Program-made: the position numbers and the translations under genes | Shown here: positions 3,231 to 6,422 of the stretch, piece after piece | How the letters are laid out: the number at the start of each line of letters is the position of its first letter | Numbering within the stretch: position 1 is the first letter of the stretch | Assembly (NCBI GenBank): GCA_027063545.1 | Contig: JAMORN010000151.1 | Span: 1 to 6,422, forward strand | Reading direction: 5' to 3' | Origin: JAMORN01 sp027063545 [NCBI: bacterium] | GTDB taxonomy: Bacteria; JAMORN01 | Length of the DNA stretch: 6,422 bases | Notes under the pieces: generated by a model | Seen by the model: the letters and a program-made list of their open reading frames with translations, nothing else | What the model was told of the DNA's origin: nothing | Database searches by the model: none

Positions 3231-3258
3231 AGGGGAAGTTTTTACTTCCCCTTTTTTT
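3231..3258 (+). terminator. Intrinsic terminator of the flagellin gene
   Basis: GGGGAAGT (3232-3239) pairs perfectly with ACTTCCCC (3244-3251) across a TTTT loop. A3231 and T3252 can add a ninth pair, and a run of seven T follows directly. It is the most GC-rich spot in the surrounding spacer and a textbook Rho-independent terminator. It separates flagellin from the downstream operon. Confidence 0.95.
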
Positions 3259-3324: not shown

Positions 3325-4290
3325 ATGAGGGAACAGACTAAATTAAGGCTTAACTTTTTTCTAAAAAGTATATCGTTTTTACTATTAGTAGTATTTAACA
3401 TCCTTATAATCTATTATATGTCAATTAGATATAAACATAATCTCTTGTCTGCTAAATATGTAGACTACAAATCTGTATCTATTCTAAATGATATAGAGGG
3501 ATTATATAAAAGAATGGATAATATAGAAGTAAACATAAGATTAAAAAGAAGAGAAGGAAAATCAACAGAAGAGTTAGAAAAAGAACTTATAAAGATTAAG
3601 CAAGCTATTAACGAGTTAAAAAAAGAAAGTGAAAAATCTAATATAAGACTTAAAACATCTGATAAAATCTATTTATTTTTTGATCCTATAAATGTTTTGT
3701 TATCAATGAGTTTAGTTGTAACTATTATTTGGAGCTTTTTCGTTGTAAAAGGTATGATAGATTATTATAAAATAGTTCTTTTACAAAGAAAAAATTATTA
3801 TAGCACCAATAAAAAACAAATGGTTGATAATGCTAATAATGAGGAAGAAAACTCAAATTTAGTTGAGAATAACGATGAAGAAAAATATATAGAAGACAAT
3901 AATCTAAAAGAAAACTCTTTAAAAACTACTGATAATTTAAAAGTTATAGAAAATTATCATGAGAATAACATATCCCCTGAAGATAATATAGAGATATTTG
4001 ATATTGAATATAATAGAGAAAATTACAAACAAGAAAATTATGAATTAGAAGATGAAACAATTGAGGAAATTATAGATAATTTAAAACACGAAGAAATAAC
4101 CCAACAAACTTCTAAAGAAGAGGAAGAATTAAATAGAATAAAGCAGATATTAGATAATCCAAAAGTTGAAATTATTCTAAATCTTTATAAAAATAATGTT
4201 CCTATACATGAAATTGCTCAAAAAACATCTTTGTCTATTGATGAAATAGAATTCGTTATAAAAACATCCAGAAGTTTAGGGAAAACATAA
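3325..4290 (+). CDS. Two-pass membrane protein with coiled coil, acidic tail and C-terminal HTH-like module; probable flagellum-associated protein
   Basis: I do not recognise a named gene. The 321-residue protein has, in order: a short basic N-terminus; a membrane helix at about 12-32; an extracytoplasmic loop with a charged coiled coil at about 53-105; a second membrane helix at about 121-143; a long acidic Asn/Glu-rich, probably disordered tail at about 165-265; and a small helical module at about 266-316 containing ILNLYKNNVPIHEIAQKTSL. That module looks like the helix-turn-helix found in DUF2802/DUF6115-type proteins near flagellar genes and at the end of Bacillus SwrB, which promotes flagellar basal-body assembly. 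Both ends should be cytoplasmic. The ATG at 3325 is the first start after an in-frame stop at 3301 and places basic residues before helix 1, but it has no Shine-Dalgarno. A poor -10-like TATTTT at 3312-3317 would give a leaderless or nearly leaderless message. It heads a compact operon with the fliK-like and flhB-like genes. The protein is surely real; a flagellar role is inference from context and the end module. Confidence 0.85.
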   Translation: MREQTKLRLNFFLKSISFLLLVVFNILIIYYMSIRYKHNLLSAKYVDYKSVSILNDIEGLYKRMDNIEVNIRLKRREGKSTEELEKELIKIKQAINELKKESEKSNIRLKTSDKIYLFFDPINVLLSMSLVVTIIWSFFVVKGMIDYYKIVLLQRKNYYSTNKKQMVDNANNEEENSNLVENNDEEKYIEDNNLKENSLKTTDNLKVIENYHENNISPEDNIEIFDIEYNRENYKQENYELEDETIEEIIDNLKHEEITQQTSKEEEELNRIKQILDNPKVEIILNLYKNNVPIHEIAQKTSLSIDEIEFVIKTSRSLGKT

Positions 4291-4325: not shown

Positions 4326-5885
4326 ATGGATAATAATATAATCTATCTATTACAAAACTTTAATAAGTACCTACCTATAATTGAAAAAAGTTTAAAATTA
4401 AAAAATGCTAATTCATATAAGAATAATAAGTTATCCCAAACAGTAAAAAATGATATTTTCAATTTCATATCGAAAGAACAACTTGACTTAATAAAAAATA
4501 TTATGTTAAAAAATACTTCATATATAGAAAATAAAACAAATCTAAACCAAAACTATAATCTTTCTGATAAGCAGCTATTAAAAGATCCATTAATCGAGCT
4601 TTTAATTTTAAATAATATAATTACTGAAAATAATGAAATATCTTATAACAAATTAAAACAAATTACTCGTGATTTTATATCTTTATTATTTTTTTTTGGT
4701 AATATTAATTCAAACGAAAATATAAAAAGTGAATATGAAAACTTAAATGGAACTAATTTATTAATAGATAATGAGTTATTAAATAATACTCATATTAAAA
4801 ATTTTATTGATAAAATCTTTTCTTCTTTGGTTAATAAGTTAAATCAAATAAAAAATATTGATAATATTCAAATTTTAAGTTCCTCTTATATAGGAACTCT
4901 TATACAAAATGGCTCCAATTCTTCTATCTTTATAAACAAACTGGAAGAAGCTATTTTTATTTTATTATCAATGAATTGGCAAAAAGAAAACCTACATTTA
5001 AATTCTAATGATATATCAAGTATAATTGATAAAGCGTTCAATTTGAATAAAAAACATTTCTTAGAAGCTTTAAATTTCTTTAAAGATAATAAAACTATAG
5101 TTAGCGAATCCTTTTTAAATATATTATATAAATCTCACCAAAAAACTCCCACTTCTATTATGAATATTTTAAAATATAGGTTATTTTTGGACCATTCTTT
5201 TGCTCAAATTCTTTCTAAAGACAAAATAGATACTATCAATAAATTATTTTATAAAATCCAAAATAATATAAATAATCTCCAAAATATAGATAAAATATTT
5301 AAAGATATAGATGTTAATAATAAAGAAATGCTAAAAGCAATAAATTTAATTTCGAAAGAAATACAGAACTATATAAGATTAATATTTAATTCTAATAATA
5401 ATATCAATAATATGAAAGAATTAGAAAATAACTTTTTAAATTATAATGAAATATCTAAAAATATTATTAAATACACTTCTAAACTTCTTAATTTTAATGA
5501 AGTTAAAAACAATTCTAATCTTTTTAATGAATTAAAAAATTTAAGAAATAATGTTATAAATCTATTTAATATTTTAAATTCCAATTATTCTATTATTCAA
5601 AATTTTTTTATTGAAGATCTAGGAAGTATTCTTTTATTTTATGAAAAGTATAGTAAATCAGATAAAATGTTTAAGAAAGGCTTTATTTATAGTTTAACTA
5701 TAGAGGTTAATACAAACAATATTGGTGATATAAAAGTTAATTTATATAAAGATAAAAAGGATAATTATATTATAAACTTTCATCCTCAAGAAAAAGAAAC
5801 AAAAAGTATAATCCAGAAGAATATTAATTTATTTTTTAATAATATAAAGGATAAATTTAAAATAAAAAGTATAGCTATAAGCTGA
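4326..5885 (+). CDS. fliK: FliK-like flagellar hook-length control protein (divergent)
   Basis: FliK is a secreted molecular ruler: it measures hook length and its C-terminal domain contacts FlhB to switch export from hook to filament subunits. In this 519-residue protein the C-terminal part (about 450-519) follows the FliK pattern. A strand leads into an LG-like turn (TIEVNTNNIGDIKVNLY, 458-474), then a strand (YIINFHP, 481-487), a helix (about 490-508) and a final strand (FKIKSIAI, 511-518). The rest is predicted mostly helical and very rich in Asn (about 95 residues by hand count, near 18%), Ile, Leu and Lys. It lacks the Pro/Gln/Ala-rich linker common in other FliK proteins. No signal peptide, membrane helix or cysteine is seen. 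The strongest support is the neighbour three bases downstream, an FlhB C-terminal homologue; this gene order also occurs as ylqG-ylqH in Bacillus. The ATG at 4326 is the first in-frame start after a stop at 4311 and has no Shine-Dalgarno. Function is moderately certain. Confidence 0.72.
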   Translation: MDNNIIYLLQNFNKYLPIIEKSLKLKNANSYKNNKLSQTVKNDIFNFISKEQLDLIKNIMLKNTSYIENKTNLNQNYNLSDKQLLKDPLIELLILNNIITENNEISYNKLKQITRDFISLLFFFGNINSNENIKSEYENLNGTNLLIDNELLNNTHIKNFIDKIFSSLVNKLNQIKNIDNIQILSSSYIGTLIQNGSNSSIFINKLEEAIFILLSMNWQKENLHLNSNDISSIIDKAFNLNKKHFLEALNFFKDNKTIVSESFLNILYKSHQKTPTSIMNILKYRLFLDHSFAQILSKDKIDTINKLFYKIQNNINNLQNIDKIFKDIDVNNKEMLKAINLISKEIQNYIRLIFNSNNNINNMKELENNFLNYNEISKNIIKYTSKLLNFNEVKNNSNLFNELKNLRNNVINLFNILNSNYSIIQNFFIEDLGSILLFYEKYSKSDKMFKKGFIYSLTIEVNTNNIGDIKVNLYKDKKDNYIINFHPQEKETKSIIQKNINLFFNNIKDKFKIKSIAIS

Positions 5886-5888
5886 AAA

Positions 5889-6155
5889 ATGAATAATAAA
5901 AGGATAAAAAAAGCTGTAGCTTTAAAGTATGAAAAACATAAAATGAAAGCTCCAATAGTTACAGCTAAAGGACAAGGATTTATTGCTCAAAAAATTGTTG
6001 AGATAGCTAAGGATTATAATATCCCAATATATGAAGATGATACATTAGTAAATTTTTTAATAAAACTAGAACTCAATGAAGAGATACCTGAGGAGTTATA
6101 CGAAATTATAGCTAAAATATTAGTTTTTATATATAAAATAAATAAGGATAAATAA
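5889..6155 (+). CDS. flhX: FlhB C-terminal-domain homologue (FlhX/YlqH type, EscU/YscU/HrcU family)
   Basis: An 88-residue soluble protein that covers only the cytoplasmic FlhB-CC region of the export switch protein. Visible signatures are KAVALKYE (8-15), KMKAPIVTAKGQGFIA (18-33), KIVEIAKDYNIPIYED (35-50) and EEIPEELYEIIAKIL (64-78), all close to FlhB. The autocleavage motif NPTH, which precedes this region in FlhB, is absent, and so are the four FlhB membrane helices. The family's PPLAR stretch is replaced by DDTLVNFL (50-57). It resembles Helicobacter HP1575, reported to act as a spare FlhB-CC, and Bacillus YlqH. It lies three bases after the fliK-like stop with no Shine-Dalgarno, which suggests reinitiation by ribosomes finishing that gene and thus coupled expression. 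FliK and FlhB-CC interact during the hook-to-filament switch, so the pairing makes functional sense. A full-length FlhB is expected elsewhere in the genome. Confidence 0.93.
   Translation: MNNKRIKKAVALKYEKHKMKAPIVTAKGQGFIAQKIVEIAKDYNIPIYEDDTLVNFLIKLELNEEIPEELYEIIAKILVFIYKINKDK
6144..6149 (+). promoter_or_regulatory. Shine-Dalgarno of the last, partial gene
   Basis: AAGGAT lies seven bases before the ATG at 6157 and falls inside the last codons of the FlhB-like gene. It sets the start of the following gene and shows that ribosome sites of usual form exist within this operon, unlike the three preceding starts. Confidence 0.7.
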
Positions 6156-6156
6156 T

Positions 6157-6422
6157 ATGAATGTAAAAAATAACTTTATTTTATCTATTATAATGGTCTT
6201 TATACTTACCATTGTAGTTTATGCTAAACATATTGACAAAGTAGTTTTTTTTAACATAAAAAATGATTCTCCTGAATATTCTTCTATTTTAATTGATATG
6301 ATTAAACATGATTTCCAAATAGATACAATTTTAGTCAAAAATAAAGACTCACTTAAAAATATTATAGATAGTCTTAATATAAAATATGCTATAAAATTAG
6401 AACTAAATAATACAGATGTTAG
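6157..6422 (+). CDS. Exported protein of unknown function, N-terminal part (runs off the right edge)
   Basis: Open reading frame from the ATG at 6157 to the window end (88 codons seen), one base after the stop of the FlhB-like gene and with its own AAGGAT ribosome site. Residues 1-23 form a good Sec signal peptide: a Lys near the N-terminus, a hydrophobic core at 7-21 (FILSIIMVFILTIVV), and a signal-peptidase site after Val-Tyr-Ala23. An uncleaved membrane anchor is the alternative; there is no lipobox cysteine. The mature part begins with a strand-like KVVFFNIKN, then a helix around residues 45-52 and a segment ending in NIKYAIKLEL. That alternation recalls small alpha/beta domains of periplasmic proteins such as the TolB or CsgG N-terminal folds, but this is only an impression. 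I do not recognise the family. Its place suggests a flagellar or envelope role. Confidence 0.82.
   Translation, partial: MNVKNNFILSIIMVFILTIVVYAKHIDKVVFFNIKNDSPEYSSILIDMIKHDFQIDTILVKNKDSLKNIIDSLNIKYAIKLELNNTDV

Follow-up and report, generated by a model that had tools for sequence, protein, structure and literature searches.

FipA, a DUF2802 protein of Vibrio parahaemolyticus, Pseudomonas putida, and Shewanella putrefaciens, binds FlhF and promotes its polar localization via the DUF2802 domain (PMC11620751). SwrB of Bacillus subtilis is a single-pass protein that is reported to activate the export apparatus, a role in which FliP and FliG are implicated (PMC4526659), and its loss raises the mobility of basal bodies (PMC12153297). 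FlgW/SwrB is named in Campylobacterota (PMC9321776), and an unnamed "TM + HTH" protein occurs in a sub-module with flgV, sigma28, FapA, and YjfB (PMC11607428). (What we say of these proteins follows excerpts of the papers.) Here, we analyze a window of 6,422 bases that is one entire contig (G000:C151) from the genome of JAMORN01 sp027063545, and we focus on the open reading frame (ORF) at 3325..4290 on the + strand. An earlier account made from the letters alone (the sequence-only reading) gave the same coordinates, strand, and length for this ORF. With a probability of roughly 70%, its product, a protein of 321 amino acids (hereafter, the query), is the FipA/SwrB-type flagellar assembly factor of this lineage, in a form with two membrane helices, as judged from the ORF, profile comparisons, and AlphaFold models. 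A role in flagellar assembly, placement, or export activation is likely because the query shares the C-terminal module and a flagellar setting with the described proteins and because the genome has FlhF and FlhA.

To find relatives, we searched 386 genomes for FlhX, and 163 had a match to FlhX or FlhB at E ≤ 1e-8 (the source genome included). We compared 60 FlhX regions (one of which is the source genome's FlhB, L082), 30 flhX loci from named records, and the window. A usable FlhX was present in 88 of these 91 loci (L103 and two named-record loci lack one); with L082 set aside, 86 usable loci are from other genomes, 58 of them from the genome search and 28 from named records. In 12 of the 86, all among the 58, a relative with a single membrane helix occupies the same slot, 5' of a fliK-like gene and flhX. 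These 12 were selected by eye, on position, on a hydrophobic N-terminus, and on the appearance of the tail, and their "fliK" genes were named by position, with Flg_hook checked for L065 alone (E = 3.4e-8). The 12 proteins have 85–306 residues; each has a single membrane segment, at the N-terminus, and ends in a module that resembles the query's. When 10 of them were scanned with Pfam, nine matched DUF2802 and/or DUF6115 at E ≤ 1e-4 (L100 matched neither), and four of the 10 were above a curated cut-off.

Because the DUF6115 model is unspecific below its cut-off (it matched 13 of 14 control genomes, above the cut-off in just three), we built profiles from the syntenic relatives. With a profile of the 12 proteins that excluded the query, the query was the best non-member among 3,162 ORFs (overlapping loci included), at 20.2 bits and E = 6.3e-5; four Marinobacter proteins that look FipA-like by eye scored 12.3–12.5 bits. 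The query's tail scored 24.1 bits, and none of 5,000 shuffles of the tail reached that score (the best was 9.2). In hhalign, the tail aligned to the 12 syntenic proteins with a probability of 94.8% and E = 5.4e-8. We also used a held-out profile of 62 other proteins, without the 12 and without the query, although these 62 are from loci collected with a profile that held the query as one of 13 rows, so there is a small dependence. This profile gave the query 36.9 bits (E = 4.8e-10), which is within the range of the 12 syntenic proteins (27.8–60.0), and the best unrelated ORF among 4,913 had 18.7 bits. These sequence comparisons place the end module, as a divergent member, in the DUF2802/DUF6115 (FipA/SwrB-type) family, much as the sequence-only reading had supposed. 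That reading had also called the protein a functional analogue of SwrB with a different membrane part. The membrane part does differ, but the end modules are homologous, which goes beyond analogy.

Several results weigh against this assignment. The check that had been proposed for the end module, a search against family models, came out positive for the profiles that we built but not for those of Pfam: a scan of the whole protein shows no family-related match, and the 66-residue tail matches DUF6115 below the cut-off (E = 0.008, 17 bits versus 27), with DUF2802 absent and HTH models scoring only slightly worse than DUF6115. Run on the source genome, the DUF6115 model gave no match at E ≤ 10. 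(Six of the 10 syntenic relatives that were scanned are likewise below the cut-offs of both families. Other matches in the whole-protein scans are weak and far below cut-off, such as Pfam PGAP1_TMD at 0.011 and NCBIfam TIGR02989 at 0.001.) No full-length homologue was confirmed among the genome contigs (62 pattern matches, none upheld), in the plasmids searched, or, at E ≤ 1e-3, in 58 other genomes, where L002 matched the tail only (E = 0.007). There was no other genome from the query's phylum to compare with, as the source genome is the sole member of its phylum among the genomes searched. Finally, in FipA, changing Gly110 or Leu129 to alanine abolished the interaction with FlhF and changing Glu126 to alanine did not (PMC11620751, in excerpt); at these three invariant positions, the query has Asn, Glu, and Phe, as paired by spacing and by alignment to relatives (FipA itself was outside the alignment). 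Across the module ORFs, the glycine is kept in 58 of 66 and the leucine in 50 of 66.

The gene has flagellar neighbors. The order on the + strand is flagellin, the query's gene, a fliK-like gene, flhX, and a partial gene. The fliK-like gene (4326..5885, 519 amino acids) is named from its position before flhX and from a match to Pfam Flg_hook that is below the cut-off (E = 0.0038, 17.5 bits versus 29.8). flhX (5889..6155) encodes a free-standing FlhB C-terminal-like protein of 88 amino acids, which matches Pfam Bac_export_2 (E = 2e-22) and, below its cut-off of 117.35, NCBIfam flhB_rel (E = 5.7e-30, 103.4 bits). The gaps are 35 bases from the query's gene to the fliK-like gene and 3 bases from there to flhX. 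The query's gene probably heads a fliK-flhX unit, which accords with the sequence-only reading's view of the operon, because a terminator-like hairpin 3' of the flagellin gene (3231..3252, + strand; one found versus 0.4 expected) separates it from flagellin. The source genome (1.57 Mb in 355 contigs, 82.7% complete) has a single module match at E ≤ 1e-3, the query itself, and yielded no further module protein. This genome encodes FlhF on contig C195 (TIGR03499, E = 9.9e-62, 209.5 bits, cut-off 174.15). On that contig, L082 has in a row the FlhB C-terminus, a 548-amino-acid protein, FlhA, and FlhF.

This setting might suggest that the protein specifically serves the neighboring FliK and FlhX, to control hook length or to switch export specificity, and not early assembly or placement. 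The slot 5' of the fliK-like gene and flhX recurs in the 12 other loci, and the distance to the fliK-like gene ranges from -35 to 45 bases for nine of the 12 (66, 134, and 178 in the rest). However, no relative lies 5' of the gene before flhX in any of the 28 usable named-record loci, and other relatives adjoin fliA, FapA, or rpsB. A role specific to FliK and FlhX is improbable. Those other neighborhoods also show that homologues do not always neighbor fliK and flhX, a pattern that the sequence-only reading had asked about.

More broadly, the module co-occurs with flagellar export genes. The module profile matches 82 of the 386 genomes at E ≤ 1e-3. Excluding the source genome, 63 of 64 carriers at E ≤ 1e-4 have an FlhB/FlhX match, versus 162 of 385 genomes overall (these counts ignore relatedness, and the FlhX search counts FlhB too). 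At E ≤ 1e-3, 71 of 81 carriers have one, and of the 10 without, nine are weak module matches (E of 1.9e-4 or worse). Homologues widespread in non-flagellated genomes, which would speak against a flagellar role, were not seen: just one of the 64 lacks FlhB/FlhX. The profile is not exhaustive: the FipA-like proteins of Marinobacter (G391 and G397) go unmatched at E ≤ 0.01. Among the named-record genomes, six of 12 have a module match at E ≤ 0.01. In five of these (two Lachnospiraceae, Salsuginibacillus halophilus, and the metagenome-assembled genomes ADurb.Bin243 and JPNA_metabat.86), the best-matching protein has a single N-terminal membrane segment; the match in the sixth, and two second matches, appear by eye to be sigma-factor-like or other unrelated ORFs. 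The Salsuginibacillus halophilus protein (E = 3e-8) is encoded between FapA and ribosomal protein S2, which we take to be the position of swrB in Bacillus, so the profile finds a protein in the presumed place of SwrB. In G144:C37 (L205) and G055:C27, two nearby module matches lie within one open frame.

Could the end module instead be a nucleic-acid-binding helix-turn-helix (HTH), and the protein a membrane-bound regulator that senses the envelope via the segment between its membrane helices? A fold search of the tail against the PDB places HTH proteins at the top (Tn3 resolvase, DeoR, LrpC, and RcsB), but none of 339 matches reaches E ≤ 0.001. The rank 3 entry, 2lvs ("CRISPR repeat binding protein"), also matches the module profile (E = 2.7e-5 over 24 residues), which makes this reading slightly less improbable. 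There is the weak match to the NCBIfam sigma-70 subfamily TIGR02989 (E = 0.001, 19 bits, cut-off 124.55), and for the shortest tail, wHTH-PRTase (0.041) and HTH_40 (0.045) come before DUF6115 (0.11), so that some DNA-binding matches are not weaker than DUF6115. On the other side, the third helix of the module (residues 305–317) has a net charge of -1, and residues 278–321 have a net charge of +1. The held-out profile puts the query 18 bits over the best unrelated ORF, with sigma-like and HTH-like ORFs included in that comparison. Of the members that have been studied, FipA binds FlhF and SwrB acts on the export apparatus, as described in the excerpts of the cited papers. No confident match to a DNA-binding family, another result that would have told against the sequence-only reading, was seen, and a membrane-bound DNA-binding regulator seems improbable. 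Separately, 8vd6 chain A, which the PDB calls a "CAP repeat", matches the module profile over five stretches (E = 5.4e-14).

The query has two membrane helices by hydropathy, at residues 11–29 (3355..3411) and 117–135 (3673..3729), as the sequence-only reading had it, and so the membrane anchor that precedes the module in this family is present as two hydrophobic segments. (Membrane segments here and in relatives were called by hydropathy only, and gene starts in the relatives' genomes are as predicted.) In a single-sequence AlphaFold model of the full protein (mean predicted local distance difference test score [pLDDT] of 67.3, predicted template modeling score of 0.25), residues 2–44 form a helix, and the first membrane segment lies within it. 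Helices at 48–76 and 82–104 (3466..3636) follow, with a pLDDT of 84–94 over residues 51–100, and then a helix at 121–177 that contains most of the second membrane segment. Confidence is low over residues 176–243, a helix covers 246–276, and the end module (residues 279–317; 4159..4275) has three helices, at 279–289, 294–301, and 305–317, with a pLDDT of 85–87 (76 in the last block). Modeled alone, the tail has the same three helices, at a mean pLDDT of 79.5. Residues 170–255 (3832..4089) form an acidic, largely disordered stretch, a presumed tether, with a net charge of -20 (net -19 over residues 143–260), which bears out the acidic tail that had been described.

The segment of about 80 residues between the membrane helices had been read as an extracytoplasmic coiled coil. 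The segment is real, but instead of a long coiled coil, AlphaFold draws a short helical hairpin. Heptad spacing does not reach significance across the full segment (p = 0.30 for residues 45–112, 0.54 for 54–104, and 0.13 for 50–110) and is weak by halves (p = 0.06 and 0.017). Since residues 1–11 carry only a small positive charge (net +2) and the segment between the helices is itself positive (net +5 over residues 33–113), the positive-inside rule leaves the topology unsettled. We infer that the N-terminus and the C-terminus are cytoplasmic and that the hairpin is extracytoplasmic, because if the end module is cytoplasmic, as in FipA, the hairpin must lie outside the membrane.

The two-helix layout is a recurrent minority form. 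We classified 72 distinct module ORFs in the fetched loci, which omit most of the weakest matches (E above about 1e-4). Forty-nine have one N-terminal membrane segment, 13 have another before the module as well (the query included), and 10 are unclassed; a few of the 72 are probable non-members, such as L214 (sigma-factor-like) and L216, both among the unclassed. The 12 other two-helix proteins are in L137, L142, L144, L157, L175, L176, L177, L182, L188, L189, L204, and L205. They are ordered like the query: a helix or signal at the N-terminus is followed by a domain, then by a second helix, and then by a further stretch that leads to the module. Their middle parts, however, are about 190–320 residues, and that of L142 alone is as short as the query's (about 80). 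TPR repeats occur in the middle parts of L157 and L175 (and more weakly of L179, which is outside these 12), and LysM occurs in that of L176. Among seven proteins with a segment deep in the chain that were scanned with Pfam, four (L137, L142, L157, and L179) are above the DUF6115 cut-off. L142 (283 amino acids) is nearest to the query in layout, and in a two-sequence blastp comparison it aligns with most of the query at 17% identity and E = 0.002, which is no proof that the outer parts are related.

Flagellar neighbors were recognized for five of these 12, by family models for L137 and L157 and by eye for L177, L182, and L204; L144, L175, and L205 are unassigned. In L188, L189, L176, and L142 (the closest in layout), no flagellar gene was recognized by eye nearby, but as the query's gene sits between flagellin and fliK-flhX, all on one strand, a module-family member working outside the flagellum is the least probable reading of all. 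Elsewhere, L194 has FlhF, an FlhG-like protein (MinD-type, below cut-off), FliA, and FapA 5' of a two-helix gene, and L198 has an HDOD protein 5' of one, with a FliK-like gene (Flg_hook 3.1e-5, below cut-off), a response-regulator-like gene, and FlhX 3' of it.

A few other features of these neighborhoods can be mentioned. In L198, L200, and L204, HDOD-type (by family match for L198 only) and sensor-kinase-like proteins lie between fliA and the module gene, in the place that FapA has in L194. In L194, L200, L201, L203, L204, and L206, a small protein with two hydrophobic segments (by eye) is directly 5' of the fliA-like gene and mostly 3' of an FlhG-like gene, as is described for FlgV in the excerpts of PMC11607428. 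L195, L196, and L202 have two-helix module proteins in clusters with no recognized flagellar genes; the neighbors are by eye YajC-like in all three and SecD/SecF-like in L195 and L196, and L196 has a TPR protein 5' of the two-helix gene.

How does the query compare with the described proteins? It shares with FipA a membrane anchor, a C-terminal DUF2802-type module (cytoplasmic in FipA and presumably in the query), adjoining flagellar genes, and FlhF in the genome. FipA, as described in the excerpts, is 163 residues long in V. parahaemolyticus. Its N-terminus is short and periplasmic, and its one membrane helix leads straight into a cytoplasmic coiled region and then DUF2802; the query instead has 321 residues and two helices with about 80 residues between them. 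Also, fipA is downstream of an operon with flhA, flhF, flhG, and fliA, and the query's gene is between flagellin and the fliK-like gene. SwrB is single-pass as well (B. subtilis SwrB is known here by description and not by sequence). The claim of a different membrane part thus holds relative to FipA, SwrB, and the 12 syntenic relatives, which all have a single helix. The "TM + HTH" protein is of the same kind, and its FapA/fliA neighborhood is shared with the relatives in L065 and L194. In the excerpts of PMC11607428, it is mentioned with no name, mechanism, or two-helix form.

If the query is a FipA/SwrB-type factor, it might act as follows. With the N-terminus in the cytoplasm, the helical hairpin of about 80 residues would lie outside the membrane and could hold or position the protein via an envelope partner or self-association. 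The acidic disordered stretch would tether the end module while allowing it to contact a partner in the cytoplasm, most likely FlhF, which this genome has, or else the export gate and the nascent ring of FliF and FliG. By docking there, the protein would help early basal bodies to be placed correctly or activated, in the manner of FipA and SwrB. A bolder and unlikely version treats the two-helix forms as a functional branch of their own. An outer sensing or anchoring domain that varies by lineage (hairpin, TPR, or LysM) would be joined to the module and would license flagellar assembly or placement from outside the membrane; the query would have lost its FlhF-binding residues and would act directly on the basal body.

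The sequence-only reading proposed a factor "not yet described", which is too strong for the class: judging by the excerpts, this kind of protein is already known, since FipA and SwrB have been studied and the "TM + HTH" protein is in print (PMC11607428). For the two-helix form, we found no description among the openly accessible papers searched (subscription papers, including one on SwrB, were outside the search). DUF2802 is mentioned among the matches listed in that search and DUF6115 is not. FipA and SwrB were described in separate papers and in different bacterial groups. Our data link proteins in the positions of FipA and SwrB through one module and a recurring gene neighborhood, and they reveal that two-helix proteins with an intervening domain recur. 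Together, these make the coupling of flagellar placement or export activation to the envelope testable in lineages without a model organism.

Two minor features of the window remain. A further gene begins 3' of flhX (6157..6420, + strand) and is truncated by the end of the contig; it has an N-terminal hydrophobic stretch, and it matches no Pfam or NCBIfam family above cut-off. Upstream, a Sigma28-like promoter (TAAA, then CCGATAA, within 2286–2312) lies 5' of the flagellin gene, whose likely start is the ATG at 2381, directly 3' of a GGAGG-type ribosome-binding site, and not the ATG at 2318.
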